61,556 bases of DNA from Candidatus Gastranaerophilales bacterium (GCA_944324135.1 CALUVE010000011.1:1-61556), one strand, 5' to 3'; numbered from the stretch's first letter, positions 2,210-21,457 are shown. A program made the numbers and translations. The notes: generated by a model not told the origin, from the letters alone.

Positions 2210-3364
2210 TTAATCTTGTTCATCTTCAGGTTTTTCGCCTAATTTAACAGCGATATCAGACCATCTCCACATCAATTCTTCACCAGGCATGTGACCGTAA
2301 GGTTCAAAGAAGAATACTGATTTAGGTTCGTCACCAGGTCTGATAGAACCTTTATCAATGTCTTGTCCGCCTGTGATGTCTCTGCGGAGAAGCATTCCTG
2401 TTCCTTTTGTCAATGTGGTTTCTTTGTCAAGTCTGTAGCCGTCAGCTGTTTCCGGTTTTTGAGAAGCACTTCCGCGCGGTACTTTGTGTTCTAAGTACAA
2501 GCCGCCGTTTTGTGATTTAGATATGCTTAACTCACCGTATGTCATATTTTTGCCAGGAACGATAGCTTCTTCTTCGTCATCCCAGCCGTAAGTTGTTCTG
2601 TCGTATACCGGTGTTCTTTCAGAAGATTTTTTACCTTTCAGGTCGTAAACATTCAAAGCGTTGTTCCATTCATCTTTGCCTATTATACGGGTGATAATAT
2701 CACCGTTGCCTTCCGGAGTGATGCCTACTTCTTCCATCATATCTTTCATGATGTCAAATACTTCTGAATCGTATTTTCGTCTGATATAAACAGTGTCGCC
2801 CGGAATAATTACAGGATACGGAATAGTATCGTGTTTTACGATAGTATCTGTTTTTGGAATATAAACAGTATCAACTTTCGGTACGAATACAGTATCTACT
2901 TTTGGAATGTAGATAGTATCGTTTTGACCCGGCAGATAGAGAGTATCTGTTTTGTTTATATAGAGTGTATCAGTTTTCGGGATATAGAGAGTATCTGTTT
3001 TTCCCGGAACTTCTACGAATGTGGTGTCGTGAATAATTTTGTCCATCCAAACTGTATCAGGTTTTTGCCAGATTGGGATGAATAATGTGTCTTTCGGGTT
3101 GTAAATAGTTAATTCATCTCTGATATCAATATCAATATTATCATCGCAGCTTGTCATCATAGACCCTGCAATAGGTGTCATCAATACAGCAAGAGCCATA
3201 GCTTTTGTAGCTTTTGAAAATGCATTGTTTGATACTTTGTTTTGCGGGGTATTATTTCTTACTTCGATAGGGTTTGTTTGATTTTCAACAGGTTTCTTTT
3301 TGTTGTTATTTTTATTAGAACGGAAACCTTGAAAACTTACATTGCTTATAGCATTAATTGGCAT
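2210..3364 (-). CDS. Lipobox protein with DTLYIP-type octapeptide repeats (paralog 1)
   Basis: Unknown function. The start is ATG 3364 (384 residues), chosen because AGGAGG sits 8 nt upstream; the longer frame has no such site. The order of parts is: an N-terminal motif NVSFQGF (8-14), a polar Asn/Lys-rich stretch (15-50), a hydrophobic segment (about 52-70), and MTSC ending at Cys73, which resembles a lipoprotein signal cleavage site followed by Asp-Asp. Next come tandem repeats of about eight residues around TDTLYIPK (122-180), then a globular C-terminal region with WDDE and PGKN motifs. The C-terminal half matches the gene at 6020-7363. A lipobox this far from the N-terminus is unusual, so surface anchoring is only an inference. 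Confidence 0.85.
   Translation of the reverse strand: MPINAISNVSFQGFRSNKNNNKKKPVENQTNPIEVRNNTPQNKVSNNAFSKATKAMALAVLMTPIAGSMMTSCDDNIDIDIRDELTIYNPKDTLFIPIWQKPDTVWMDKIIHDTTFVEVPGKTDTLYIPKTDTLYINKTDTLYLPGQNDTIYIPKVDTVFVPKVDTVYIPKTDTIVKHDTIPYPVIIPGDTVYIRRKYDSEVFDIMKDMMEEVGITPEGNGDIITRIIGKDEWNNALNVYDLKGKKSSERTPVYDRTTYGWDDEEEAIVPGKNMTYGELSISKSQNGGLYLEHKVPRGSASQKPETADGYRLDKETTLTKGTGMLLRRDITGGQDIDKGSIRPGDEPKSVFFFEPYGHMPGEELMWRWSDIAVKLGEKPEDEQD
2830..3010 (-). repeat. 24-bp coding minisatellite (octapeptide repeat)
   Basis: Within the lipobox protein the DNA repeats with a period of about 24 bp, giving about six units of (K/x)-(T/V/N)-D-T-(L/I/V)-(Y/F)-(I/V/L)-(P/N). Unit lengths vary slightly: one unit carries a two-residue insertion. 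The pattern suggests growth by slippage or unequal exchange. Confidence 0.8.
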
Positions 3365-3581
3365 GTTACGTAACCTCCTTAACTGGTTAATAGTGTGTTT
3401 TATGATTATACTAAAAAGAAACATAATTTTCTTTGCTAGTAATATTAAAAAAAAATAGTTGTTTCTTTGAAAAGTATTGATATTAGCGGGTTTCGAGAAA
3501 AAATTTTACATTTACAAAACGTTACAATAGACTTTTAGGAAGATTCTGTTGATGAAATTATATTTTTGATGCTTTGTAAAT

Positions 3582-6019: not shown

Positions 6020-7363
6020 ATGGCACTTGAAGGAGTTAAATCATCAACAGCAGCAACAACAACACAAACAGGGGAACCGGTTAGATTTTCGTTCCAGAAA
6101 GAAACACCTGCACAACAATTACAGAAATTGCTTGCAGAACAGAAAAAGAAATACGATGCAATGACACCGGAAGAAAAAGCAAAATATGACAAAGCAGGTG
6201 AAGAAGCACTTGCTCAATCAATCAAAGAATCACGTGAAGCTACAGAAAAGAAAGGATTTATCGGACGTATTGTAGACGGATTCAAAAAAGATTATAAAGA
6301 TGTAGACAGCGTGGGCGATTTCCTAAAAGCAACAGTAGCCAGAGCAAATCGTACAGGCGCAACAGCAATTCTCGGCGCAGGTTTAGCTCTTATTGGCGGC
6401 GGTGCGGCACTTAAAGCAATGAAAGGTGCAAAAGCTCTCAGCGGTCTTGCAACCGGTGCAAAAACTATCGGTAAAGTATCATCAGCTACAAAAGCACTCG
6501 GTACTGCAGCAATTCTTCCTGCAGCAGCAGCTTTGACAAGTTGTGAAAAAGACAGTTTTCTTGATGACAACTATGATATATACACAGAAGATAAACTTCC
6601 TGTACAACCGCGCGAAATCATAAACACAGTCGAAGTTCCTGTTATAAAACGCGATACTTTATGGCAAGAGCGTGTTGATACACTTGAAGTTCCTGTATAT
6701 ATAACAGAGACTGATACACTTTGGCAAACTAAAATAGATACAGTTTATGTTCCTGAGGTAGTACATGATACAATTTATCAGGAAATCCAGTTACCGCCTG
6801 AAATTATTACAGAAATACCTGATTATCACTCTGAAGTAAACCCTTACATTGACGATATGATGGATGAACTGGGTGTTAAACAGGAAGGCGATGGCGAATT
6901 CACAGAATCATTCGTAACTTATGATGAACATAACTCAAGAGTTATTCAGCTTGTACTTGACCCGCAAGCATCAGCTAGAGACGGAAGTTCATTAAGATAC
7001 AATAAAATCGTAACTAACTGGGATGACGAAGCAGGTACAATCACTCCGGGTAAAAATGAAGAACGTGGAACAGTTGATGTATCAATCTCACACACAGGTG
7101 ACGGTCTGAATTTACTGGAAAAAGGTCAAGGCGTACAAACTATGGATCTCAACAGAGAAGGTAACCTCTATATGGTTCAAAACAAAAGTGGTGAATCAAC
7201 CAGCTCTTATGAGCCGACCCCATTACTCCAAGCCGGCGGCTGGTTATCAAGAGGCGACTTTGACAACTCAATCAAATGGAACTGGCAAACAGGCGCATTC
7301 GGTCACTTCACCAACGCAACCAGAAAGAAATCTAATGCTCCGGTTAAAGGTGATCAACAATAA
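6020..7363 (+). CDS. N-extended lipobox protein with DTLW/DTVY repeats (paralog 2)
   Basis: Unknown function, 447 residues, start set by AAAGGAG 8 nt before ATG 6020. Parts in order: VRFSFQKE near the N-terminus (21-28), a Lys/Glu-rich helix (32-95), Ala/Gly-rich hydrophobic segments (about 112-130 and 161-173), and LTSC ending at Cys175, which fits a lipobox consensus and is followed by EKDS. Next come degenerate repeats (RDTLWQ, VDTLEVP, TDTLWQ, IDTVYVP) and a C-terminal region with MMDELG, WDDE and PGKN motifs shared with the gene at 2210-3364. The two paralogs flank the recA pair on opposite strands. Membrane insertion and lipidation are inferred. Confidence 0.88.
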   Translation: MALEGVKSSTAATTTQTGEPVRFSFQKETPAQQLQKLLAEQKKKYDAMTPEEKAKYDKAGEEALAQSIKESREATEKKGFIGRIVDGFKKDYKDVDSVGDFLKATVARANRTGATAILGAGLALIGGGAALKAMKGAKALSGLATGAKTIGKVSSATKALGTAAILPAAAALTSCEKDSFLDDNYDIYTEDKLPVQPREIINTVEVPVIKRDTLWQERVDTLEVPVYITETDTLWQTKIDTVYVPEVVHDTIYQEIQLPPEIITEIPDYHSEVNPYIDDMMDELGVKQEGDGEFTESFVTYDEHNSRVIQLVLDPQASARDGSSLRYNKIVTNWDDEAGTITPGKNEERGTVDVSISHTGDGLNLLEKGQGVQTMDLNREGNLYMVQNKSGESTSSYEPTPLLQAGGWLSRGDFDNSIKWNWQTGAFGHFTNATRKKSNAPVKGDQQ

Positions 7364-10988: not shown

Positions 10989-11564
10989 TTATTCTGCGGT
11001 TGCCACATTGACAAGTGATGCTCTCAATACTTTGTCACCCATTTTGTAGCCTTTTTGAAGTTCGTTTATGATTGTATTTTCAGGGTGTTCGCTTGTTGGA
11101 GTCTGCATTACAGCTTCGTGGAAATTCGGGTCAAATTCTTTGCCCTCTGTTTCTATAGTTTCAAGTCCGAGTTTTGTTAATGTATCCATTACCTGTTTGT
11201 GTAAAAGATTAAAACTGTCTTTTACCTGCTGGCAGTCGTCTACTTTTTCAAGCGCTTTTTCTCCGCGTTCAAAGTTGTCTAAAACTTCTATCATTTTTTT
11301 CAGGGCGTTTTCCGCTCCGTATTTTAAGAGAGCTTCTCTTTCCTGTTCCTGTCTTTTTCTGTAATTGTCAAAGTCTGCAGCAAGTCTTATGTACTGCTGA
11401 TTGAGTTTGTCATATTTTTCTTGAAGTTCATTGTCAGAAGTTTTTTCTTCTTGCTCTTCTTTAACTTCTTCTTGTTCTGTTTGAGCTGTTTCCGGTTGTT
11501 CTTCGGATTTTATATTAAGCTCTTCCGAATTTTTATTAAAAGGATTTTTATGTTTATGTGACAT
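10989..11564 (-). CDS. grpE: Nucleotide exchange factor GrpE
   Basis: GrpE releases ADP from DnaK. The protein is 191 residues: a charged, disordered N-terminus (1-45), a long dimerising coiled coil (about 45-110) containing YIRLAADFDNYRKRQEQERE, and the C-terminal beta domain ending in the diagnostic stretch NELQKGYKMGDKVLRASLVNVA. A GAGGTGG ribosome binding site precedes the start. It is the first gene of a minus-strand operon with dnaJ, the propeller protein and the O-methyltransferase. Confidence 0.97.
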   Translation of the reverse strand: MSHKHKNPFNKNSEELNIKSEEQPETAQTEQEEVKEEQEEKTSDNELQEKYDKLNQQYIRLAADFDNYRKRQEQEREALLKYGAENALKKMIEVLDNFERGEKALEKVDDCQQVKDSFNLLHKQVMDTLTKLGLETIETEGKEFDPNFHEAVMQTPTSEHPENTIINELQKGYKMGDKVLRASLVNVATAE

Positions 11565-11596
11565 TTTTCCACCTCACAATATTTTCATATATTTTT

Positions 11597-11624
11597 ATTA
11601 TAAAGTATCAAGGAATTTAAACAA
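11597..11624 (-). promoter_or_regulatory. Promoter of the grpE-dnaJ operon
   Basis: On the minus strand: TTGTTT (11619-11624), a 16-bp spacer and TATAAT (11597-11602), about 35 nt before the grpE start. A heat-shock operator was looked for and not found. Confidence 0.6.
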
Positions 11625-11667
11625 GGAAAATTTATTATTTTTTAATAATTAATAAACTTTTTAAAGG

Positions 11668-11696
11668 TTGTTATATCCGGTTTGTCATGGTATAAA
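11668..11696 (+). promoter_or_regulatory. Promoter of the small methyltransferase locus
   Basis: TTGTTA (11668-11673), a 17-bp spacer and TATAAA (11691-11696), about 35 nt before the ATG at 11732. Confidence 0.55.
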
Positions 11697-11731
11697 TTTA
11701 TAGTTTAGACCGTGTTGAGAGCAGGAAAAGT

Positions 11732-11893
11732 ATGTCTGATTATGAAAAGTTAAAGGAATGTATTAACGAGCTATCGAATTTGAAAAAACTTGAATCCGCC
11801 TCCGGTATTCCGGAAAAAGACGTGTTGTTTAATGAAATTGTTCTGAACTATCTTATTTACGATAATGACTGGTTTAGTCTTCAAAAGGCTTAA
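11732..11893 (+). pseudogene. 5' part of a frameshifted methyltransferase gene (53-codon frame)
   Basis: ATG 11732 opens a 53-residue frame that follows a good promoter and stops at TAA 11891-11893. It overlaps the start of the methyltransferase frame by 29 bases. The C-terminal NDWFS continues naturally into FKRLNIK of the other frame if one base near 11877 is dropped. It is therefore more likely the 5' half of a broken gene than a separate peptide, although a sequencing error is equally possible. Confidence 0.5.
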
Positions 11894-12329
11894 TATAAAA
11901 GTTGAAAATACGGATGTTTATGACGGTGCAAATTATAAATGGGATTTACAAAATATCCCCTGTACGGAAGAGCAATATGATGTAATTATTTCTAACCATG
12001 TTCTTGAACATATAAAAGATTACAAAAAGGCTATTAATGAACTTTTTAGGATTTTGAAAAAAGGCGGAGTTCTTCTTATAACAGTTCCTCTGCTGTATAG
12101 ATATCAGGAAACTTTTGAAGATTTTTGTGCGGAAAGTGCTGTGAAAAGAAAATTGTATTACGGTCAGAGTGATCATTTGCGGATATTCGGGAAGAATTTC
12201 CCTGAGTATTTAAAGTCAGCTGGATTTGAGGTAGAAGTTCTTGACGGCAGAAAAATGCCGCGTAATATTCGTCCTGTTACAGGGCCTGCTGCTTATGATG
12301 ACAAGATTATTTATCTTGCAAAAAAATAA
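11865..12329 (+). CDS. Class I SAM-methyltransferase fragment
   Basis: A 154-residue protein with the second half of a Methyltransf_11-like fold: YDVIISNHVLEHIKDYKKA (motif II/III, about 39-57) and ELFRILKKGGVLLITVP (post-III). The glycine-rich SAM-binding motif I normally found in the first 40 residues is missing, both here and in the 53-codon frame upstream. As written the protein may not bind SAM normally. It is divergent from grpE. The status (functional, decaying, or frameshifted by error) is unclear. Confidence 0.65.
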   Translation: MTGLVFKRLNIKVENTDVYDGANYKWDLQNIPCTEEQYDVIISNHVLEHIKDYKKAINELFRILKKGGVLLITVPLLYRYQETFEDFCAESAVKRKLYYGQSDHLRIFGKNFPEYLKSAGFEVEVLDGRKMPRNIRPVTGPAAYDDKIIYLAKK

Positions 12330-12334
12330 TCCGC

Positions 12335-15289
12335 TTAAATCTTTATTCCGTTAAGCTGGCAGAAAGATTTCAAAACATTTTTTGATTTTTCGTTTTTAAT
12401 ATGTACGTAATTATTTCTTGTTGTTTTAACAAGGGTAGAGACTTTTTCAAACATAAGCATTGCATTTCTCAATTGATCAGGCTGTTGTGCTGATTTTACA
12501 AATCCGAGTTCCTGATAGTATTTGCCGTACAAAAGGTACAGGCGGGAGAGCAAATCTTTCAGGTTGAATTTTTTGGCCAGTGCTATTGCACTTTCCAGAT
12601 GCATTTCTGCCTGCTCGTAATCTGATACTGTTATGCAGGCTTTTACGATTACCATTCTGAGTAAAATATTAAAGAAGTAATTGTCTATTTTAGGGTTTTT
12701 AGCTACTTCAAGAGCCTGAGTAGCAATATCTATGGCATTATGCGGTCCTTCGGTTATAAGCGCTGCATCTGCAATTAAATACCATGTCAAAAGTGCTCCG
12801 AGTGCCATTTTTTCTTTTGCAAAATAAGTTATCTGGTCACTGTAGATTTCCATGGCATGTTTGGATTGTTCATTATCTTTAAAGATTTTTCCAAGCAGGG
12901 TTTTCAGAATATTTTTAGTGAAATTATCTCCGTTGTTGTTGGCAAATGTTACTATCTGGAACAAGTCCTCCTGCAAGCCGTCATATCGTTTGCGGATAAA
13001 GTTATTTATTATGTTGACGAAATTCCAGCGGATTATTGTTTCGTTATCCATTACGTTGTTTCTGTATAGTTTCAAAATCTCTTCCAGAATTTCTTCAGAA
13101 GTTGTGGTGTCTCCTTTTATTGTGTTTGCAAAAGCCAGAGTAAGTTTTGTTTTGCAGATAAACAGTTCATCCTGTATGTTGTTACGCTGAATTATGTCAA
13201 ACAGGATTGTGAGGATTTCAAACGAACGGTCATTCCCCTGCATTATTAATGCGTTTGCAAGCAGCAGGTACGTTTTTATCCATGTTTCCTGAACGATATT
13301 TTCCGGTATAAGTTTATTGGTATAATTTTTGGTTAAAACTTCATCAAGCACAGGCATGATTTCATTATCAACCATATTGATAATTTGTCCGCAGTTTCCG
13401 ATATTGAGCAGCGAAGACAGTTTTGCGGCTTTTAAAAGTGCTATCTCCAGAGTTTTTTCAGGTTTAACTTTTTCAAGAACGGTATCAATACATTCAACGT
13501 CACCGAAATAGTTTCCTGTTCTGCGGCAGCAGGAGGACATATACCCTAAAAGTTCAATTTCTCTCGGGGTGTCACCCACAGCCTGTGCATTTGCAATCGC
13601 ATCAGGCAGGTATTCCATCGCCTCTTTTGGATTTGTGTCGGCAAGAAGTTTGCCGAGCCGCTCTGAGATGTTGTAGCGGGTTTTCAGGGTCTCACTCTCA
13701 TCCATTTCATTTATCAGCGCAAGGCATTGTTTCTGTGATATTGCATACAGGTTTGTGTCTCCTATGCCGGCAGAAAGTCTTGTATTTTTTGTCCAGATTT
13801 TCAGCGCAAGTTCATTGTGTTTCAGGTTCTGGGCAATTATTCCGAATATCGCATTGGAGTTTAATGTCAGCGGGCTCAAAGCTTCGTACAGTTGTTTATT
13901 TATTTCTATAAATTTTTCGGAAACTTTTGCGCTCGATAATATATTTTCCCATAGAGTTATGTTTTTAAATTCCGCAAAAATTTCATTGTACGGCTCGATA
14001 AAATTCATTTTTTCAAGATAAGTTACAGCTCCGTTAAATTCTGAATCATTGAATCCAAAAATTTGTTTTATCAGCTGCAGATTTATTTTGTCTCCAAGGA
14101 CGGCTGAGCCTGTCAAAATTTTATATGCATTCGGGTTGGAAACCTCCAGCAGTGCAACTCTTTTGCTTATGGTTTCGGCGTAAGAAATAGGTAAGTCAAA
14201 TGTGTAATCATTGATGTGGCAGTCAAGTTTAAGGCTCAGGATTTGTTCTAGGTAAGACGGGTTGCCGCCGCTTATTTTGAAGATTCTTTCCCTCTCTTCC
14301 GGTTCTATGTACGGATAATCCTTTATGTGTTCTTCAAAATGTTCTACAAACATCTGCATACCTTTTTTTTCAAAAGGTGCTATCCCTAAATCAGTATAGA
14401 CATCTTCTTTTCTATCGGGGAATGAAAAATACCCTTTTGCAGGGCGTGCTTCGTTGTAAACAAGGATTAATTTCAACTTTTTCCAAACAGGCTCCTGTTT
14501 GATGAAATTTGATATAAATTCATAAGAAAATCCGTCAATAAAATCAAAATTATCTATAACAAAAAGTATATCTTGCTGGACATTTATTATTGAAAATACT
14601 TTTGTTAAAAGATTAAAAGTTTTTGTTTTGTTGAGAATGAGGTTCTCAAAATTGTCGCAATTCGACGGGTAGATAAAGTTTATCAAATCCAGTACTTCTG
14701 TATTTGATAATGTAGGAAATTCATTCTGGAAAAATCTGGAGGCATCTTTTTTAAATTTTGTGTTGTTTACGCAGAAAATAGGCAGATTGAAAACGTTAAG
14801 CAGAATGTCCTGTACAAGCCCTCCGGAGGTAAGCTGTGTTATCGGTGTGCATTTGCCTATACAGTAAAGAAACTGATGAGCTCTTAAATTTTCAAGAACT
14901 TTTTTTATTACGACAGATTTTCCTATCCCTTTTGCTCCGCTTATTGAAAAAATCTTTTTGTCTTTTGATAATATGCCTTTTGTCAAAAGACTGATGGCAT
15001 TGCTCTGGGAATATAATTGTGCCTGATATTCCAGCGGGTTGTAGTTTGCGCGTCGGTGTGAGTCTCCAAACTCGTGGTTACATTTTCTGCATTTTGTGGC
15101 GGTTGGGAAATTTACGCATTTACATTCGGGACAAATTTTTAGGATTTCTTCACCGCATTTTTTGCATTTTAAATCAAAAATGGAATTTACCGTATTGCAG
15201 TTTGGACAGACTAACCCTGTTCTTGTTTTGCAATAAGGGCATTTGAGCGAATCATCAGGAATTGTTTTTTTGCATATAGGACATTTCAT
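12335..15289 (-). CDS. Zinc-ribbon STAND-type NTPase with helical-repeat C-terminus
   Basis: A 984-residue probable signalling ATPase. The N-terminal 70 residues carry three double-cysteine zinc ribbons (C3/C6 with C17/C20, C28/C31 with C42/C45, C53/C56 with C67/C70). A P-loop GAKGIGKS follows at 118-125, and ILFVIDNFDFID fits Walker B. Residues about 480-960 are all-helical with TPR-like periodicity, as in adenylate-cyclase-associated and MalT-like STAND proteins. I see no catalytic output domain. It starts 18 nt after the sigma factor gene on the same strand and should be co-expressed with it. A sensing or scaffold role in sigma factor control is inferred. Confidence 0.75.
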   Translation of the reverse strand: MKCPICKKTIPDDSLKCPYCKTRTGLVCPNCNTVNSIFDLKCKKCGEEILKICPECKCVNFPTATKCRKCNHEFGDSHRRANYNPLEYQAQLYSQSNAISLLTKGILSKDKKIFSISGAKGIGKSVVIKKVLENLRAHQFLYCIGKCTPITQLTSGGLVQDILLNVFNLPIFCVNNTKFKKDASRFFQNEFPTLSNTEVLDLINFIYPSNCDNFENLILNKTKTFNLLTKVFSIINVQQDILFVIDNFDFIDGFSYEFISNFIKQEPVWKKLKLILVYNEARPAKGYFSFPDRKEDVYTDLGIAPFEKKGMQMFVEHFEEHIKDYPYIEPEERERIFKISGGNPSYLEQILSLKLDCHINDYTFDLPISYAETISKRVALLEVSNPNAYKILTGSAVLGDKINLQLIKQIFGFNDSEFNGAVTYLEKMNFIEPYNEIFAEFKNITLWENILSSAKVSEKFIEINKQLYEALSPLTLNSNAIFGIIAQNLKHNELALKIWTKNTRLSAGIGDTNLYAISQKQCLALINEMDESETLKTRYNISERLGKLLADTNPKEAMEYLPDAIANAQAVGDTPREIELLGYMSSCCRRTGNYFGDVECIDTVLEKVKPEKTLEIALLKAAKLSSLLNIGNCGQIINMVDNEIMPVLDEVLTKNYTNKLIPENIVQETWIKTYLLLANALIMQGNDRSFEILTILFDIIQRNNIQDELFICKTKLTLAFANTIKGDTTTSEEILEEILKLYRNNVMDNETIIRWNFVNIINNFIRKRYDGLQEDLFQIVTFANNNGDNFTKNILKTLLGKIFKDNEQSKHAMEIYSDQITYFAKEKMALGALLTWYLIADAALITEGPHNAIDIATQALEVAKNPKIDNYFFNILLRMVIVKACITVSDYEQAEMHLESAIALAKKFNLKDLLSRLYLLYGKYYQELGFVKSAQQPDQLRNAMLMFEKVSTLVKTTRNNYVHIKNEKSKNVLKSFCQLNGIKI

Positions 15290-15306
15290 ATTTTAAAATC
15301 CCGATT

Positions 15307-15876
15307 TTAGTTAAAAAACTGCTTTACTTTTTCCATTAATTTGAAAAGTCTTTTGGATACTTCGGATTGTGATAAATTAAGCTCTGATGCAATTTCTTTT
15401 TGTGTCATTCCGTTTTCGTAACGCAATTTGTAAATGTTTAAAAACTGTTTTTCAGGATCATCATTGTTAATTTGTTCTAATGCAGAGATTACCCTCTGGA
15501 CAATTTCTTTTTTCAGAACAATATCCTCCGGAGTTTCTGTTAAAGTTATTCCGTCATAGTTTATTTGTGCATCGGAATAATCCAGAGCCGGAGTGCCGGT
15601 TACTGTTTCTAGAGGAAGTTCTCTTGTCGGTGTAAAACCGCTTCTTCCGCGTCTTAATCTCCCTGAATCTTTTAAGACATTTAAAATAGATGTGGTTGCT
15701 ATTTTTCTTAAATAGGCTTCCAGCGTTGCATCAGAAGTTATTGTTTTAACAATGACAAGAGAGCGTTTGCAAGTTTCATTAAAGAAGTCGTCGTACAAAT
15801 CTTCGTTGTTTGCAAATTTTCTGTCGTTTTTTATAATCTTCTCTATTAAGTCTATTTTGTCTTGAGCTAATTCCAC
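15307..15876 (-). CDS. Sigma-70-family (ECF-like) sigma factor
   Basis: A 189-residue protein with a region-2-like N-terminus (DDFFNETCKRSLVIVKTI, then YLRKIATTSILNVLKD) and a clear region 4 helix-turn-helix at about 156-177 (GMTQKEIASELNLSQSEVSK). Between them is a linker of about 45 residues with a basic GRLRRGRSG segment. The two-domain layout and size fit ECF-type sigma factors, which redirect RNA polymerase to a small regulon. It sits between a transmembrane protein gene upstream and a zinc-ribbon NTPase gene downstream, in the place an anti-sigma factor would often occupy. The exact ECF group is not determined. Confidence 0.85.
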   Translation of the reverse strand: MELAQDKIDLIEKIIKNDRKFANNEDLYDDFFNETCKRSLVIVKTITSDATLEAYLRKIATTSILNVLKDSGRLRRGRSGFTPTRELPLETVTGTPALDYSDAQINYDGITLTETPEDIVLKKEIVQRVISALEQINNDDPEKQFLNIYKLRYENGMTQKEIASELNLSQSEVSKRLFKLMEKVKQFFN

Positions 15877-15916
15877 TTCTTACGAATTTCCTTGTTCCAG
15901 CAATATTATATCATAA

Positions 15917-18900
15917 TTAAAAGCTCATGATAATAGCCAAATTGAATTCATCCCCTTTGACCTCATCAGCAGGCGGTTTTACGATATTAAGAGTGTTTTT
16001 AACAGATTGTAACACTATTTGGTCAATTTGAGCAGAACCGCTGCTTATTGCCATGTCTGCTTTTTTTACATCGCCTGACGGGGAGAGGGTTAGAGCTACC
16101 TTTACTCTGTCTGTAGACGAGTAATCGGTAGTTAGAAGCAGGTCGCTTGATGCTGAAAGTTTGACACTTCTTCCTACAGTCTGGAGATATTTTCTTATTC
16201 CCTCGCTGTATGACAGGTAGTCCGGAATTTCAAATGTTATTTTTTTGATTTCAGGATAGAAATGTCCTTTTACAACAGTATTTGATGCTGTTGCTGCAGG
16301 TTCTGCTTTTTTAATTCCCGGTGCTGCCGGAGGCGGTGTTTGTGCAATTTTTTCATCAGCAGGAGCCGGCAATGTTTCAGGAATTTTAACTGCCGGCGTT
16401 GTGGTTTCCGGTGCAGGCGGCTGCATATCGCCGTTGCCGAGAGTGTCTATAATTTCGCCCTCAGGTACAGGCTGCAGGTCAGATGTTTCTGTGGATTTTC
16501 CGTTTTTAATAAATGTTGTCAGAGTCAATACCCCGAGTAATGCCGCAACTACTACCAGCAAAAGAATCATGCCTTTTTTGCCTTTTTCTTTTGCCATTGT
16601 CTGCATGTAGATTGTTTCTTCAGGCGTTAGTTCCTGGTCTGTGATATCTGAATCGGATTCTTGATTAACTTCCGGCATTGCTTCCATATCAAGATTTTCT
16701 ATAGTATCTTTTGTATCATCATCATTATCGCTGTCATTGTCGTCGTCATCGTCATCCGGAAGTCCGTTGCCCAGAAGTGTATCTATTTCTGCGAGAATAT
16801 TTTTGGAATCAAGTTCTGCCGGAATATCATCAGGAGCTTGTTTTGGTTCATTTTTTGCGGCTGAACCTATTCCTGTTACCGGAGTGTCAAATGAAAGTGT
16901 TGCATCTTCCATATCCATCGGTTTTGGTGCATCTGCATTATCTTCAATTAATGTAAACGGAAGGTCCTCTGAGTCATTTGTTTTTGACGGCTCCTCATCC
17001 ATATCAGAAAAAGATAGCAGTTCGGAATCATCATTTTTTTGAGTGTTTTCTGTGACTGAATCAATGTTCATAGATATATCATCAGCGAAAGATAAGGTTT
17101 CAGACGGTTGTTCGGAAGCTGTTGATGTTTCCGTGATATTCTCCGGCTCTTCCGGCGCAAAGCTGAGAAGTTCGTCCGGTTTAAACTCTTCAGGAACCTC
17201 TTGATTGTCCGGCTGTGTGTCTATAGTTTCTTCCGGCGCAAAGCTGAACAAATTATCGATTGTGTCTGCAGGAGTTTCTTCGTTTTCTGTTTGCAGGGGT
17301 GAAGATTCCTCCGGCGCAAAGTTTAACAAGTCCTCGTGAGTTTCAACAATAGATTCTGTATTTTCAGGCTGTGCGTTCAGAGGTTCTTCCGTAAAGTGTA
17401 ATAAATCCTCCTGAACTTCATCTGCCGGCTCCAGCCCCTGTGTATCCTGAGCAGCGGAAGTTTCCGGTTCATCAAGAGTAATATTTTCATTTAATTCCGG
17501 TAAAACATCATCAAAACTCAAGTTTTCAGGTTCTGTAGATAGAGGTTCTTCCGGAATCAAATCATCACCGGCCGGCAATGATAAATCCTGTTCTAAATCT
17601 AAATTGTCGATATTATCCAGCGGTTGAAGATTATCAAGATTAATATTTTCTAAATCTTCCTGCTCTTGAGTGTCTCCAAGTTCTGTAAGATTTTCCGGAG
17701 TCAGGCTTAAATCATCAATTTCCGGTACTGGTTCAGTTTCTGTCTGAGGTATAAAATCTTCTGTATTGATGCTTCCGGTCTCAATCGGCTCAAGAACGGC
17801 AGTCTCAGGATTTTCATCAACAGTATTTTCTGTTGAGGAGAGTTCTTCAAGGTTATCAATAGAAGTTTCCAGATTGTCTATTGACATTTCCTCAAGATTA
17901 TTGATGGAGTTCTCTTCAGAATTGCCGGCAGGCAGGAGTGCATCACTTTCTTCCATTGGCTGGAGATTTTCTTCAAGGTTAAAGCTGTCGAATGTTTCCA
18001 TATTATCCGTTGTCGGCAGTGATTCTATATCTAAGTTAAGCTGATTTTCTTCTGTCTGTGCTGTTTCTGTCGGAGTATCATCCAATAAGGTCATGTTGAT
18101 GTCACTGTCGGTTGTATCTTCTTGCGGTTCGGAAGTTTCAAGACCAATGGTGTCAAGCGCTCCGATTGCTGTAAGTTGTTCATCGACAATATCAGTTTTA
18201 AGTTCCGGCATGGTCATTTTTTCCATAGAGGTTTCGTCCTCGGATGACAGAGCGGTAATGAAATTCCCTTCATTACTGTTATCCTGATTGTCAAAATCTA
18301 CTTCTAATGACACCGGTTCCAATACATCAAATGCAACGGCATCATTAGCACTGTAATCATCGTGTCTGAAGTTTTCAATATTTTCCGGAACACTTACATC
18401 AATATCATCAAAGTTTATCAATTCTTGTGAGGAGTCATCATATTCCGGAGGAGTTGTGTATCCCAGCATTGCATTTTCTGCCTCGTCAGGTTCATTCTGC
18501 GAGTTGTCAATAAATTCTATGTCATTTTCGGAGGTTGTATTTTCTTCTGCCGGTTCTTCTGTAAAAATTAAATCTTCGGTTACTTCCGTTTCGCTCTCCG
18601 GCTGCAGAGTATCTTCTGCTGCAGGCATTAAGATTTCATCTAATGAAACCTCTTCTCCGTCAGGAAAATCATGAGACTCAAGATTGTCAGTTGTATTTGT
18701 GCTTTCTTCCGCTATTTCAGGGAAAATTTCTTCTTCTGTAGCGGCTGTTGAGTCTGTTGTGTCGGATACTTCCGGAGTCAGATTTTCTTCGTCAATAACC
18801 GGCGGCAATTCTTCCGGAGCTGCTGTGCTCTCCATTGAATCAAATTCATCATTGCTGTTGTCAAACATTTCAAATTCATCAACAGGCTGTGATAAATTTT

Positions 18901-19696
18901 CCGGACTGTTCTGCAGGTCTGCCGGTTCTTCCGGTAAGTCATCTCCGGCTGTCAGAATCATTGGAGTACGTGCTGAGGTTTCGGTTATTGTTTTTTGCAA
19001 ATCGTCATCATTTGCCGCTTTATAGGAAAGAATTTCAAAATTGCTGAATTCAATAAGTCTGTCTCTCAGGGAATCTGATTTGAGGAGTGTGCCTATCAGA
19101 TTCTTTTTATCTTCATCATGCAAGTCATTATCTACCATTGAGATAAAATATGACTCGGACATGTAAACAGTCTCTTCATCTAAAATTTGAGTTGTATTAT
19201 TTGAGGCACTTTCTATAAATGCTTTAAGGTTAATTACAGGAGTTAATTTTTCTTTCTGGATAAAATAATAGTCATTGTTTGCATCTTTTTTATTAATCAG
19301 TTCAGGTTTAAAAAAACCGAGCGCTTTTACGTAACTCTGATCTTCAGACAGCTGGAATACAAGATAAATATCAGGAGTAAGTCCGTATTCAAAATGACTT
19401 TTCGGGACAAAAATGTATTTGTCGCTAAATACCACTCTGACATCAATGTGGACATTAGGCAGGATTATATCTGCAATATCAAATTCTTCCAAAAATTTGT
19501 GTACAGAATGCAGATTATGAAGATTAGAAACGTTTATCCCCTCGGAGGCAAGATATTTAAGTCCTAATTCCACCCCGAGAGTATTGATATAGGCTCTGTT
19601 TCTCACACTGTTTTTTGCAAAACCTTTTGCCTGTGCGCTCGCTTCTGCTTTATCATTTTCTTCTACATAAATTAAAGTTTCCTGTCCTGATGTCAT
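15917..19696 (-). CDS. Large acidic transmembrane protein with TonB-like C-terminus
   Basis: A 1259-residue protein; start ATG 19696 is set by AGGAGG 7 nt upstream. Parts: a globular N-terminal domain (about 1-190) that may resemble the cyanobacterial DUF1822 family; about 800 residues of Asp/Glu/Ser/Thr/Pro-rich low complexity with repeated short motifs such as LLSFAPEE; an Asp-rich run before about 1000; one transmembrane helix (about 1043-1063); a Pro-rich spacer; and a C-terminal TonB-like domain (about 1145-1259). The predicted topology is N-in with the TonB domain in the periplasm. It heads a unit with the sigma factor 40 nt downstream. It might tether or sense for that sigma factor, but this is inference; no ExbB/ExbD is present here. 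Confidence 0.75.
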   Translation of the reverse strand: MTSGQETLIYVEENDKAEASAQAKGFAKNSVRNRAYINTLGVELGLKYLASEGINVSNLHNLHSVHKFLEEFDIADIILPNVHIDVRVVFSDKYIFVPKSHFEYGLTPDIYLVFQLSEDQSYVKALGFFKPELINKKDANNDYYFIQKEKLTPVINLKAFIESASNNTTQILDEETVYMSESYFISMVDNDLHDEDKKNLIGTLLKSDSLRDRLIEFSNFEILSYKAANDDDLQKTITETSARTPMILTAGDDLPEEPADLQNSPENLSQPVDEFEMFDNSNDEFDSMESTAAPEELPPVIDEENLTPEVSDTTDSTAATEEEIFPEIAEESTNTTDNLESHDFPDGEEVSLDEILMPAAEDTLQPESETEVTEDLIFTEEPAEENTTSENDIEFIDNSQNEPDEAENAMLGYTTPPEYDDSSQELINFDDIDVSVPENIENFRHDDYSANDAVAFDVLEPVSLEVDFDNQDNSNEGNFITALSSEDETSMEKMTMPELKTDIVDEQLTAIGALDTIGLETSEPQEDTTDSDINMTLLDDTPTETAQTEENQLNLDIESLPTTDNMETFDSFNLEENLQPMEESDALLPAGNSEENSINNLEEMSIDNLETSIDNLEELSSTENTVDENPETAVLEPIETGSINTEDFIPQTETEPVPEIDDLSLTPENLTELGDTQEQEDLENINLDNLQPLDNIDNLDLEQDLSLPAGDDLIPEEPLSTEPENLSFDDVLPELNENITLDEPETSAAQDTQGLEPADEVQEDLLHFTEEPLNAQPENTESIVETHEDLLNFAPEESSPLQTENEETPADTIDNLFSFAPEETIDTQPDNQEVPEEFKPDELLSFAPEEPENITETSTASEQPSETLSFADDISMNIDSVTENTQKNDDSELLSFSDMDEEPSKTNDSEDLPFTLIEDNADAPKPMDMEDATLSFDTPVTGIGSAAKNEPKQAPDDIPAELDSKNILAEIDTLLGNGLPDDDDDDNDSDNDDDTKDTIENLDMEAMPEVNQESDSDITDQELTPEETIYMQTMAKEKGKKGMILLLVVVAALLGVLTLTTFIKNGKSTETSDLQPVPEGEIIDTLGNGDMQPPAPETTTPAVKIPETLPAPADEKIAQTPPPAAPGIKKAEPAATASNTVVKGHFYPEIKKITFEIPDYLSYSEGIRKYLQTVGRSVKLSASSDLLLTTDYSSTDRVKVALTLSPSGDVKKADMAISSGSAQIDQIVLQSVKNTLNIVKPPADEVKGDEFNLAIIMSF
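16980..17420 (-). repeat. Tandem short linear motifs LL(S/N/H)F(A/T)xEE
   Basis: Within the acidic linker there are at least six spaced copies of a 9-10 residue motif: EDLLHFTEE, EDLLNFAPEE, DNLFSFAPEE, DELLSFAPEE, ETLSFADD and SELLSFSDMDEE. They are separated by 15-35 acidic residues, a layout expected of a multivalent binding platform. Confidence 0.7.
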
Positions 19697-19808
19697 GTTT
19701 TTTCCTCCTGTAATTATATTGATTACACACGGTGAAAAAATATTCCAAAAATATCGTAAACTTTTGTAACAATTATTGAAAAAAGAAATAATTTGAGTCA
19801 AAATAATT

Positions 19809-19836
19809 TTGTCAGTGGTTTTATTTAGTGTATAGA
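19809..19836 (+). promoter_or_regulatory. Promoter of the V-S-F-R-G protein gene
   Basis: TTGTCA (19809-19814), a 16-bp spacer and TATAGA (19831-19836), about 40 nt before ATG 19879, which also has AGGAGG upstream. Confidence 0.55.
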
Positions 19837-19878
19837 AATTAATGTGGTAAGTGTAATATTAATAAGGAGGCAATCCAA

Positions 19879-20301
19879 ATGATTAGTTCTGTGTCAAGTG
19901 TAAGTTTTCGTGGTGAAGCGCCTAAGGCTCAAGCTTCCGGTGCTCAAAGAGATATTCAAGATTTGATTAACCAGCCGGGTAAATTTACAAAAACCGAAGA
20001 TGCTCCTGTTGCCGAAAAGAAAAAAGGCGGAGCAATGAAGAAAATCGGTAAAGTTTTGTTAGGTGCTGCTATCGCTCTCGGTGTTGTTGTCGGTGCTAAC
20101 AAATTAGGTTTCAAACCTCAAGTACTTGATGAAACAGCAGGCTTTGCTAAAAAAGCTCTTAATAAAGTTGCAGGATGGTGTGATACTATCACAAAACATA
20201 CCTGGGATGCTTTAGTAAATGTTTTCAAAAGAAATAAAGGTTCTGATATCGCAGAAGAAATTGCAGACGCAGCTGCTGATGCTGCCGGTGCTGCATCATA
20301 G
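19879..20301 (+). CDS. Small protein with N-terminal VSFRG motif and one hydrophobic helix
   Basis: A 140-residue protein of unknown function. AAGGAGG lies 9 nt before the ATG. The first 13 residues read MISSVSSVSFRGE, much like MPINAISNVSFQGF in the lipobox protein at 2210-3364. After a polar stretch and a basic EKKKGGAMKKIGK segment comes a hydrophobic helix (about 59-75), then amphipathic helices and an Ala/Asp-rich tail. It has no classical N-terminal signal peptide. The gene is monocistronic, with its own promoter and terminator. Confidence 0.8.
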   Translation: MISSVSSVSFRGEAPKAQASGAQRDIQDLINQPGKFTKTEDAPVAEKKKGGAMKKIGKVLLGAAIALGVVVGANKLGFKPQVLDETAGFAKKALNKVAGWCDTITKHTWDALVNVFKRNKGSDIAEEIADAAADAAGAAS

Positions 20302-20320
20302 TCAATTTTAAATTCAATAA

Positions 20321-20363
20321 AAAATCTTCGCCGGCAATTTAGTGTTGGCGAAGATTTTTTTTC
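20321..20363 (+). terminator. Rho-independent terminator
   Basis: AAAATCTTCGCC (20321-20332) pairs with GGCGAAGATTTT (20347-20358), followed by a T-run. It lies between the small VSFRG gene and the convergent hemW. Confidence 0.9.
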
Positions 20364-20368
20364 GAAAT

Positions 20369-21457
20369 CTATTCTAAAAATTCTGATAAAATTACATTGC
20401 TCACAAGAAATCCGTCATCAGAAAATTTGTAGCCGTTTTGTGTTTTTATAAGGTGTCCGGTTGTGAGATATTTTTTTAGAATTCTGTTGTATTTTTTGTC
20501 AAAATCAATAGAAAATTTTTCGTTTATTTGTTTGGTTTCAATCCCGTCTCCTCGTCTGAACCCGAGGAAAATTTCTTCCTCAAGTTCTTCCTGTTTTGAA
20601 ATTTTATGAAAGGAAGCATGTTCGGTGGGCGTGTTAATATAATCGTCAAGGTTTTCTTTGTTGGAATATCTTACCCCGTCCGCATAACCGTGTGCAGCCG
20701 CTCCAAAACCATAGTAGCTGTTATTGTTCCAGTAGTTTAAATTGTGGCGGGAATTACAGCCTGAAATTGAAAAGTTGCTTATTTCGTAATGCTCAAATCC
20801 GTTTGAGGTAAGAGTTTTTATTGCAAGTTCGTACATGTCTGCCTGAACGTCTCCGTCAGGCAGATGTTCAGGTTGGTGTGTGTAAAAATAACATCCCTCA
20901 TCTATTTTGAGCCCGTATAGTGAAATATGCTGTACTCCGAGAGAAATGGCTCTCTTTAAATCCTGTTCAAAGATTTCTTCTGTTTGTTCGGGCAGCCCGT
21001 AGATAAAATCCAGATTTATATTTTCAAATCCTGCAAGTTTTGCGTTCTGTACCGCGTTAATCACATCTTCTGCTTTGTGTCTGCGTGATATTATTTCTAA
21101 AATTTTGTTGTCAAAAGTCTGGCACCCGAGGCTTATTCTGTTTATTCCAAGCCCTTTGAGTGATTTTAAATATTCTAACGTGAGTCCGTCCGGATTTAAT
21201 TCGGCTGTTATTTCCGTTTCCTCTGTAATGTTAAAGTGAGCAATAATCCGCTTAAATTCGTCGATTGTGAGCAGGGACGGAGTTCCTCCTCCAAAGTATA
21301 GAGTATCTAATTTTTCATATCTGTAATAATGCAGAATTTCTTTTTCAAGTGCATCAAGATATTTTTCTTTCAAACTAATACAAGGGTATGAGATGAAAGA
21401 ACAATAATTACACTTAGATTTGCAAAAAGGTATGTGGATATAGACATTTTTTACCAT
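20369..21457 (-). CDS. hemW: HemW-like radical SAM protein
   Basis: A 362-residue member of the HemN/HemW family. The radical SAM cluster motif is CKSKCNYC (Cys13, 17, 20), preceded by YIHIPFC, and YFGGGTPSLL supplies the SAM-binding glycines. RISLGCQTF, FIYGLPEQT and the HNLNYW segment are typical of HemW, which acts as a heme chaperone; true anaerobic coproporphyrinogen dehydrogenase HemN has a longer N-terminus with an extra Cys. The length favours HemW. It is convergent with the small gene before it and divergent from the export operon. Confidence 0.88.
   Translation of the reverse strand: MVKNVYIHIPFCKSKCNYCSFISYPCISLKEKYLDALEKEILHYYRYEKLDTLYFGGGTPSLLTIDEFKRIIAHFNITEETEITAELNPDGLTLEYLKSLKGLGINRISLGCQTFDNKILEIISRRHKAEDVINAVQNAKLAGFENINLDFIYGLPEQTEEIFEQDLKRAISLGVQHISLYGLKIDEGCYFYTHQPEHLPDGDVQADMYELAIKTLTSNGFEHYEISNFSISGCNSRHNLNYWNNNSYYGFGAAAHGYADGVRYSNKENLDDYINTPTEHASFHKISKQEELEEEIFLGFRRGDGIETKQINEKFSIDFDKKYNRILKKYLTTGHLIKTQNGYKFSDDGFLVSNVILSEFLE

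Follow-up and report, generated by a model that had tools for sequence, protein, structure and literature searches.

A conserved three-gene unit of Gastranaerophilales that combines an ECF-type sigma factor with a predicted TonB-like transmembrane anti-sigma protein and a zinc-ribbon NTPase

Three neighboring genes of a Candidatus Gastranaerophilales genome form a conserved control unit of these uncultured gut relatives of cyanobacteria. We consider it probable, from comparison of sequences, that the unit is an autoregulated pair of an ECF sigma factor and a TonB-like transmembrane anti-sigma protein, with an ATPase as partner, in which the sigma factor would be held at the membrane. The window, that is, the whole stretch of DNA analyzed (61,556 nt), corresponds to contig 11 of this genome of 1.82 Mb, the Gastranaerophilales being an order of gut-dwelling relatives of cyanobacteria. 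A preliminary description had read the genes as an envelope-signaling unit, and this reading, the linkage of the genes and the domain plan stand. Its claim that a classical anti-sigma factor is absent does not: on the evidence of sequence profiles and a structure model, residues ~170–245 of protein 1 are a previously hidden class I anti-sigma domain, for which inhibition of the sigma factor is predicted.

Gene order and conservation of the unit

The three genes lie on one strand with gaps of 40 and 17 nt, as first described; the features are collected in Table 1.

Table 1. Features of the three-gene unit and of its upstream region, in positions of the window.
Feature	Position	Strand	Basis
Gene 1, DUF1822 – anti-sigma – acidic tract – TM – TonB-like, 1259 aa	15917..19696	-	ORF, Pfam pieces, order-wide homologues
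DUF1822 N-terminal half, residues 1–163, predicted PD-(D/E)XK-like fold	19208..19696	-	PF08852, AF2, VIA-align, profile match
Predicted class I anti-sigma domain (ASDI), residues 170–245, zinc ligands lost	18962..19189	-	AF2 helices, RsiW, zf-HC2, domain-only HMM
Acidic low-complexity cytoplasmic tract, residues 246–1028	16613..18961	-	composition count
Predicted TM helix, residues ~1043–1063, N-terminus inside	16508..16570	-	hydropathy, flanking charges
TonB_2-like periplasmic domain, residues 1170–1251, after Pro-rich stretch	15944..16189	-	PF13103
Gene 2, ECF-type sigma factor, 189 aa, GTG start, σ2 and σ4 only	15307..15876	-	TIGR02937, AF2, Foldseek
Gene 3, triple zinc ribbon – STAND-type P-loop NTPase – TPR, 984 aa	12335..15289	-	Pfam, motifs
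Putative ECF-type promoter, -35 GGAATA (19741–19746), -10 region TAATCAATA (19717–19725)	19717..19746	-	conserved site
Divergent small gene, 140 aa, N-terminus MISSVSSVSFRG	19879..20301	+	similar small genes, same place, many relatives

The synteny is conserved among relatives. All three families occur order-wide and are usually adjacent, so that the arrangement is not a product of chance. The sigma factor and the head of protein 1 were each found in 140 of 146 Gastranaerophilales genomes and the NTPase in 144. Among 40 loci compared, a non-random sample picked mostly around matches to the sigma factor or the head, genes 1 and 2 are adjacent in 33 and all three genes are present in 26 (loci, genera, families and genomes are designated below by L, g, f and G numbers, respectively). 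The flanking genes vary between these loci, and the order within the unit is kept; neighbors of the grpE-dnaJ type were recognized only in the window's own genus. In families f2, f3 and f4 the linkage is confined to genes 1 and 2. In one genome, G130 of genus g17, the three genes are scattered, and the gene for protein 1 has no promoter of the kind described below.

Several observations concern the surroundings of the unit. Many loci of family f1 have small divergent genes with similar N-termini (VSxVxFRG) beside gene 1, and the one in the window may be a fourth part of the unit or a target of a shared promoter. Downstream, a methyltransferase ORF (11865–12329) has 154 aa here versus ~341 aa in the same-genus loci L031 and L032; the window copy may be a truncated form or may have a wrongly assigned start. 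Farther away, two proteins that look alike (2210–3424 and 6020–7363) both have an N-terminus of the SFQ type, a stretch TSC[DE] and DT-rich repeats (such as DTVYIPKTDT); these are possibly surface proteins. Known RNA elements were not found in 11500–20500, and a defence system was rejected as a candidate on the ground that PADLOC gave no informative match.

Protein 1 and its predicted anti-sigma domain

Class I anti-sigma domains consist of a three-helix bundle plus a fourth helix (PMC7406223). The AF2 model of the protein 1 head has four helices in the right order, at residues 174–188, 194–206, 208–228 and 231–243. When the N-terminal alignment was run as a profile against the PDB, RsiW (5wuq) was the best match (E = 3.7e-4), and the sigma factor alignment gave SigW of the same 5wuq complex over residues 23–178 (E = 2.1e-3). 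Pfam zf-HC2 was found in 11 of the 34 aligned members, with 4.4e-6 as the best value. An HMM of the anti-sigma domain only, run on 712 ORFs, retrieved its own family and an anti-sigma factor in L105 that adjoins an ordinary ECF gene (E = 1.3e-11), followed by a 216-aa ORF in L048 (9e-6), with the next value at 0.09. The L105 anti-sigma factor matches zf-HC2 with E = 2.8e-13 and its sigma partner matches Sigma70_r2 with 7.5e-14. In a fold search with the whole head of protein 1, all the matches listed are to the DUF1822 part, so this search is uninformative on residues 170–245. Identity of the anti-sigma domain within the genus is 66%. With a class I anti-sigma domain predicted in protein 1, the predicted inhibition of the sigma factor needs no new principle.

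In relatives of the window protein a zinc signature, Hx3Cx2C, is found at the same place, e.g., LFLSYLDNEISNVDKEYLVRHIANCDECRNDF in L062, and it is present in g13, g17, g20, g23, g25, f2, f3 and f4. It is absent from the window, where the corresponding stretch, YFISMVDNDLHDEDKKNLIGTLLKSDSLRDRLIEF, has kept the helices without the ligands. The window protein is therefore not called a zinc-binding member. The zinc motif is missing in ~44% of class I domains (PMC7406223), so that loss of the ligands alone does not amount to loss of function. Loss of the anti-sigma activity is nevertheless possible for the window copy.

The anti-sigma domain is preceded by DUF1822. The preliminary description had suggested a DUF1822-like domain here, and this is borne out by Pfam: with residues 1–260 scanned alone, DUF1822 (PF08852) matches residues 11–157 with E = 1e-10 and 41.7 bits, against a cut-off of 25, the match spanning model positions 3–156 of 370 only. 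DUF1822 is not listed in a scan of full-length protein 1; interference of the acidic tract with the composition correction is the probable cause. The domain has 87% identity within the genus. A profile-profile comparison likewise matched only the N-terminal half of cyanobacterial DUF1822 (probability 97.3, E = 2.3e-11), and DUF1822 was found in 0 of 14 control genomes. In photosynthetic cyanobacteria DUF1822 is often multi-copy, and many of the cyanobacterial DUF1822 genes that we fetched lie directly after a sigma-70 gene, several with CHAT genes beside them. These neighborhoods agree with the report of Kaur et al. of ECF sigma and DUF1822 genes together with EACC2-caspase genes (PMC8195603). 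The Hx3Cx2C motif was not seen among the cyanobacterial DUF1822 proteins examined.

The AF2 model of the head has a pLDDT of 90.7. The VIA-align rows for it are restriction-endonuclease-like, the best being Hjc (2wj0) with Z = 8.4 over 109 residues, a value close to what the tool classes as common; Foldseek alone gave no E below 0.001 for the head. Residues D76, D85 and R87 are near-invariant across the order, with an arginine at the lysine position of the D...(D/E)xK pattern, and the pattern is not uniform in cyanobacterial DUF1822. The modeled fold would resemble that of PD-(D/E)XK nucleases, and we do not claim catalysis.

The long acidic part described earlier is plain from its composition, with 238 D/E versus 11 K/R in residues 246–1028. 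It is the fastest-changing part of protein 1, with 42% identity within the genus, and its length in relatives ranges from ~90 to 890 residues. The net charge of the tract is mostly between ~-40 and -255 in relatives, with ~-15 in L045 and -1 in L051, where the tract has ~90 residues. What the comparison indicates to be conserved is charge, not sequence. The place of the acidic residues is flexible too. In g11 the acidic part is mostly on a separate protein. In g14 the tract of protein 1 is short, and a long acidic insert is found in the sigma factor between σ2 and σ4; f7 has an acidic insert of ~110 residues at that point of the sigma factor. The tract looks like a charged tether with a flexible place, and a part as a nucleic-acid mimic is possible. 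Because the tract varies in length, is poorly kept in sequence and has, in one genus, a counterpart inside the sigma factor, a required grip of the protein 1 tail on the sigma factor is not indicated.

As to the inserts themselves, the g14 sigma factors have 582–607 aa in complete copies and carry an insert of several hundred residues (L045:6683–8482, L046:6897–8645, L110:5997–7820). This is notable because, according to a survey of sigma factors in cyanobacteria, accessory domains occur at the protein ends only and never between the sigma domains (PMC11119718).

A single hydrophobic segment, at residues ~1043–1063, follows the tract, and KEKGKKG stands just before it. With the positive side inside, the acidic tract would therefore lie in the cytoplasm and the TonB-like end in the periplasm. 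The single membrane span, with the acidic part inside and a TonB-like domain outside, is thus retained from the preliminary description, on the basis of hydropathy, flanking charge and a TonB_2 match. The latter (PF13103, residues 1170–1251) scored 24.5 bits against a cut-off of 22 when the C-terminal piece was scanned alone, and TonB_2 matches the relative in L051 with 1.3e-8. One relative gave weak AgmX/PglI and TolA matches, and a single-sequence search found no solved relative of the C-terminal domain. The C-terminal 110 residues have 78% identity within the genus. In genera g11 and g19, protein 1 is encoded by two genes with separate start codons, one for the head and one for the acidic-TM-TonB part (L042:4094–6975, L066:5955–8877, L053:9723–13975).

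The sigma factor, its putative promoter and the NTPase

The assignment of gene 2 to the ECF-like sigma factors agrees with the earlier reading: NCBIfam TIGR02937 (sigma70-ECF) matches residues 19–186 with 70.4 bits against a cut-off of 42.9 (E = 1.4e-19). In the AF2 model (pLDDT 85.6), helices at residues 5–71 and 116–188 correspond to σ2 and σ4, joined by a short linker, and the best Foldseek matches are sigmaE/RseA (1or7), AlgU and SigH. Unlike its g14 relatives, the window protein has no long insert. The best sequence matches among named genomes are proteins of Candidatus Gastranaerophilales metagenome-assembled genomes, with up to 84% identity. Pfam Sigma70_r2 is not among the matches listed for the window protein or the 25 families listed for its relatives, so σ2 is probably divergent; the region is covered by TIGR02937 and by the SigW profile match.

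Of 33 loci, 23 have a site of the form GGAATA-N15-NNNTCWW close to the gene 1 start, across families, versus 0.19 expected from shuffles. The strict pattern has its sole exact match in the window's own genome at 19717–19746. It occurs in 61 of the 117 genomes of the family, mostly once, and the full-consensus copies are immediately upstream of protein 1 wherever protein 1 was located. All 23 loci with the site encode a σ4 helix of the SQxxxxKR type. The linked σ4 helix is degenerated or changed in g14, g15, f3 and f7 (L045, L046, L047, L059, L060, L065 and L068), and the site is absent from each of these loci, the g14 loci L045 and L046 included. The g14 branch may be losing the sigma function, since its σ4 helix is degenerated and the promoter is gone. 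The joint occurrence of helix and site supports, but does not prove, the proposal that the sigma factor reads GGAATA-N15-NNNTCWW; the correlation reflects few independent events because the genomes are related.

Given the single exact copy in its own genome, the best reading is that the clearest target of the sigma factor is the operon itself, and the exact-match search in that genome found no target beyond the operon promoter. A wider regulon was considered and rejected. With one mismatch allowed, the genome has five further sites versus three with a reversed control pattern, and in the 117 genomes the sites short of full consensus look like chance. Between the divergent genes, at 19747–19850, the blocks TTGTTACAAAAGTTTACA, AAAACnACTGA and TTATTTTGAC are conserved in many relatives; they may be a second promoter or a regulator site.

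Protein 3 was described earlier as a zinc-ribbon P-loop protein of the STAND type, and its six CxxC motifs, Walker A and Pfam NTPase matches agree with this. It has three zinc ribbons (six CxxC), a Walker A motif GAKGIGKS, a Walker B, a GNP motif and C-terminal TPRs, and the motifs are conserved; the Pfam matches are DZR (4e-6), ATPase_2 (1.8e-5), AAA_16 (1.7e-5) and TPR_12 (6.6e-9). All the features of a STAND NTPase, namely Walker A, Walker B, a GNP-type motif and C-terminal repeats, are thus found. Pfam recognized no effector domain. Many outgroup copies are longer between the ribbon and the P-loop. A degenerate nucleotide-cyclase domain was considered for outgroup copies (L063, L065, L050) on visual inspection and rejected, as the PDB profile search stayed at chance level and Pfam gave no such domain for L054 and L065. 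Elsewhere in the window's genome, an ORF of ~1186 aa (L102:1–1725, contig 26) encodes a second triple-zinc-ribbon protein, matched to protein 3 in the ribbons only.

Proposed mechanism, alternatives and known systems

We propose the following course of events. Protein 1 would span the inner membrane once, and its cytoplasmic head (residues 170–245), beside DUF1822, would bind the sigma factor and block σ4 and σ2 in the manner of class I anti-sigma domains. The acidic tract would be a flexible, negative tether from the head to the membrane, and the periplasmic Pro-rich stalk and TonB-like domain would take up an envelope signal. The head would let the sigma factor go through cleavage, involving a site-2 protease, or through a conformational change, perhaps with DUF1822 and the NTPase taking part. 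One M50 site-2 protease was found, which permits the cleavage route. Released sigma factor would transcribe from GGAATA-N15-NNNTCWW before gene 1 and so raise the output of its own operon. The comparison itself shows the domain content, the kept linkage, the conserved promoter site and the loss of this site where the σ4 helix is degenerated; the binding, the signal, the release step and the roles of DUF1822, the tether and the NTPase are steps that we infer.

The preliminary description had offered another mechanism, in which the acidic tail, as a multivalent mimic of nucleic acid, takes hold of the sigma factor and resetting falls to the NTPase. The markedly negative net charge that most genera retain and the acidic stretch between σ2 and σ4 of the sigma factor in g14 and f7 would fit such a mimic, but we regard it as very unlikely. 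A conventional anti-sigma domain is predicted and suffices, and the tract changes fastest (42% identity within the genus versus 87% for DUF1822 and 66% for the anti-sigma domain), shrinks to ~90 residues with a net charge near 0 in L051, and is mostly on a separate protein in g11. It is also unlikely that DUF1822 and the sigma factor are the core of a conflict or stress module, with the STAND NTPase as sensor or effector in the manner of CHAT or caspase proteins in cyanobacteria. STAND proteins are common in conflict and stress systems, and cyanobacterial DUF1822 genes often follow sigma-70 genes, several with CHAT genes; ECF sigma and DUF1822 genes also occur with EACC2-caspase genes (PMC8195603). 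Against this, the unit is near-universal in the order, unlike patchy defence systems, PADLOC matched the sigma factor only at the helix-turn-helix level, which is uninformative, and protein 3 has no recognized effector domain.

Protein 1 could instead be mainly part of an envelope machine, like TolA or GltJ/AgmX, with the anti-sigma domain a relic that tunes its own supply. The TonB-like tip, the weak AgmX/PglI and TolA matches in a relative, the loss of zinc ligands in the window's clade and the own operon as sole exact promoter match are all in line with this. We think it quite unlikely, as the recognition helix of the sigma factor and the promoter are conserved together, which argues for continued regulation. 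Lastly, it is tempting to propose a history of the parts, a doubtful one that we hold only tentatively: DUF1822 may have been a nuclease-fold adaptor and partner of sigma-70 since the ancestor of Cyanobacteriota. In the gut lineage it would have been fused to three further parts, namely an anti-sigma domain of class I, a polyanionic tract open to exchange and a sensor of the TonB-like kind. The polyanion would then be a second, movable inhibitor, whose place may be the anti-sigma factor, a protein of its own or the gap between σ2 and σ4.

If the sigma/anti-sigma reading holds, it would be a core ECF signaling unit in a gut lineage that is widespread and for the most part uncultured. It gives part of DUF1822 a testable job, and the acidic tract, which differs in length between relatives and is in some of them a separate protein or part of the sigma factor, amounts to a natural experiment on charged disordered tethers in transcription control. 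The open-access literature that we searched contained no paper joining Gastranaerophilales with a sigma factor or Melainabacteria with an anti-sigma factor, and DUF1822 is mentioned there in two papers.

Among known systems, SigW/RsiW of Bacillus subtilis is one in which the profile searches led, for both partners, to a single solved complex, 5wuq; as proposed here, a membrane-anchored anti-sigma factor is paired with a two-domain sigma factor. RsiW is small, however, and is not known to have DUF1822, a 780-residue acidic tract or a TonB-like domain, whereas here DUF1822 precedes the anti-sigma head and the zinc ligands are lost. The FecR/PupR proteins share the order of an anti-sigma head, a TM helix and a C-terminal periplasmic domain of the secretin/TonB class (PMC7186176). 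They have ~325 residues, with an STN domain and no long acidic tract, whereas protein 1 ends in a TonB_2-type domain. FecR and PupR work with a TonB-dependent transducer; no TonB-dependent receptor (Plug domain) was found in the window's own genome, which argues against signaling of the FecR type.

The dual-membrane-spanning Dma1 and Dma2 of Bacteroides are alike in having an anti-sigma domain, a TM helix and a long disordered tether. Their disordered part follows the TM helix and ends in a C-terminal β-barrel, while here the tract is acidic and would be cytoplasmic, and the C-terminus is TonB_2-like. The cyanobacterial sigma-70/DUF1822 loci with CHAT or EACC2-caspase genes have in common with the present unit a DUF1822 gene beside a gene of the sigma-70 family (PMC8195603), the N-terminal half of DUF1822 being homologous. 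Cyanobacterial DUF1822 extends over the full 370 positions and showed no Hx3Cx2C in the proteins examined, the profile match ends before the anti-sigma region, and the third partner, where seen, is of the CHAT type rather than a zinc-ribbon STAND protein. Taken with these systems, the unit appears to be envelope-to-gene signaling of a known type in an unusual build.
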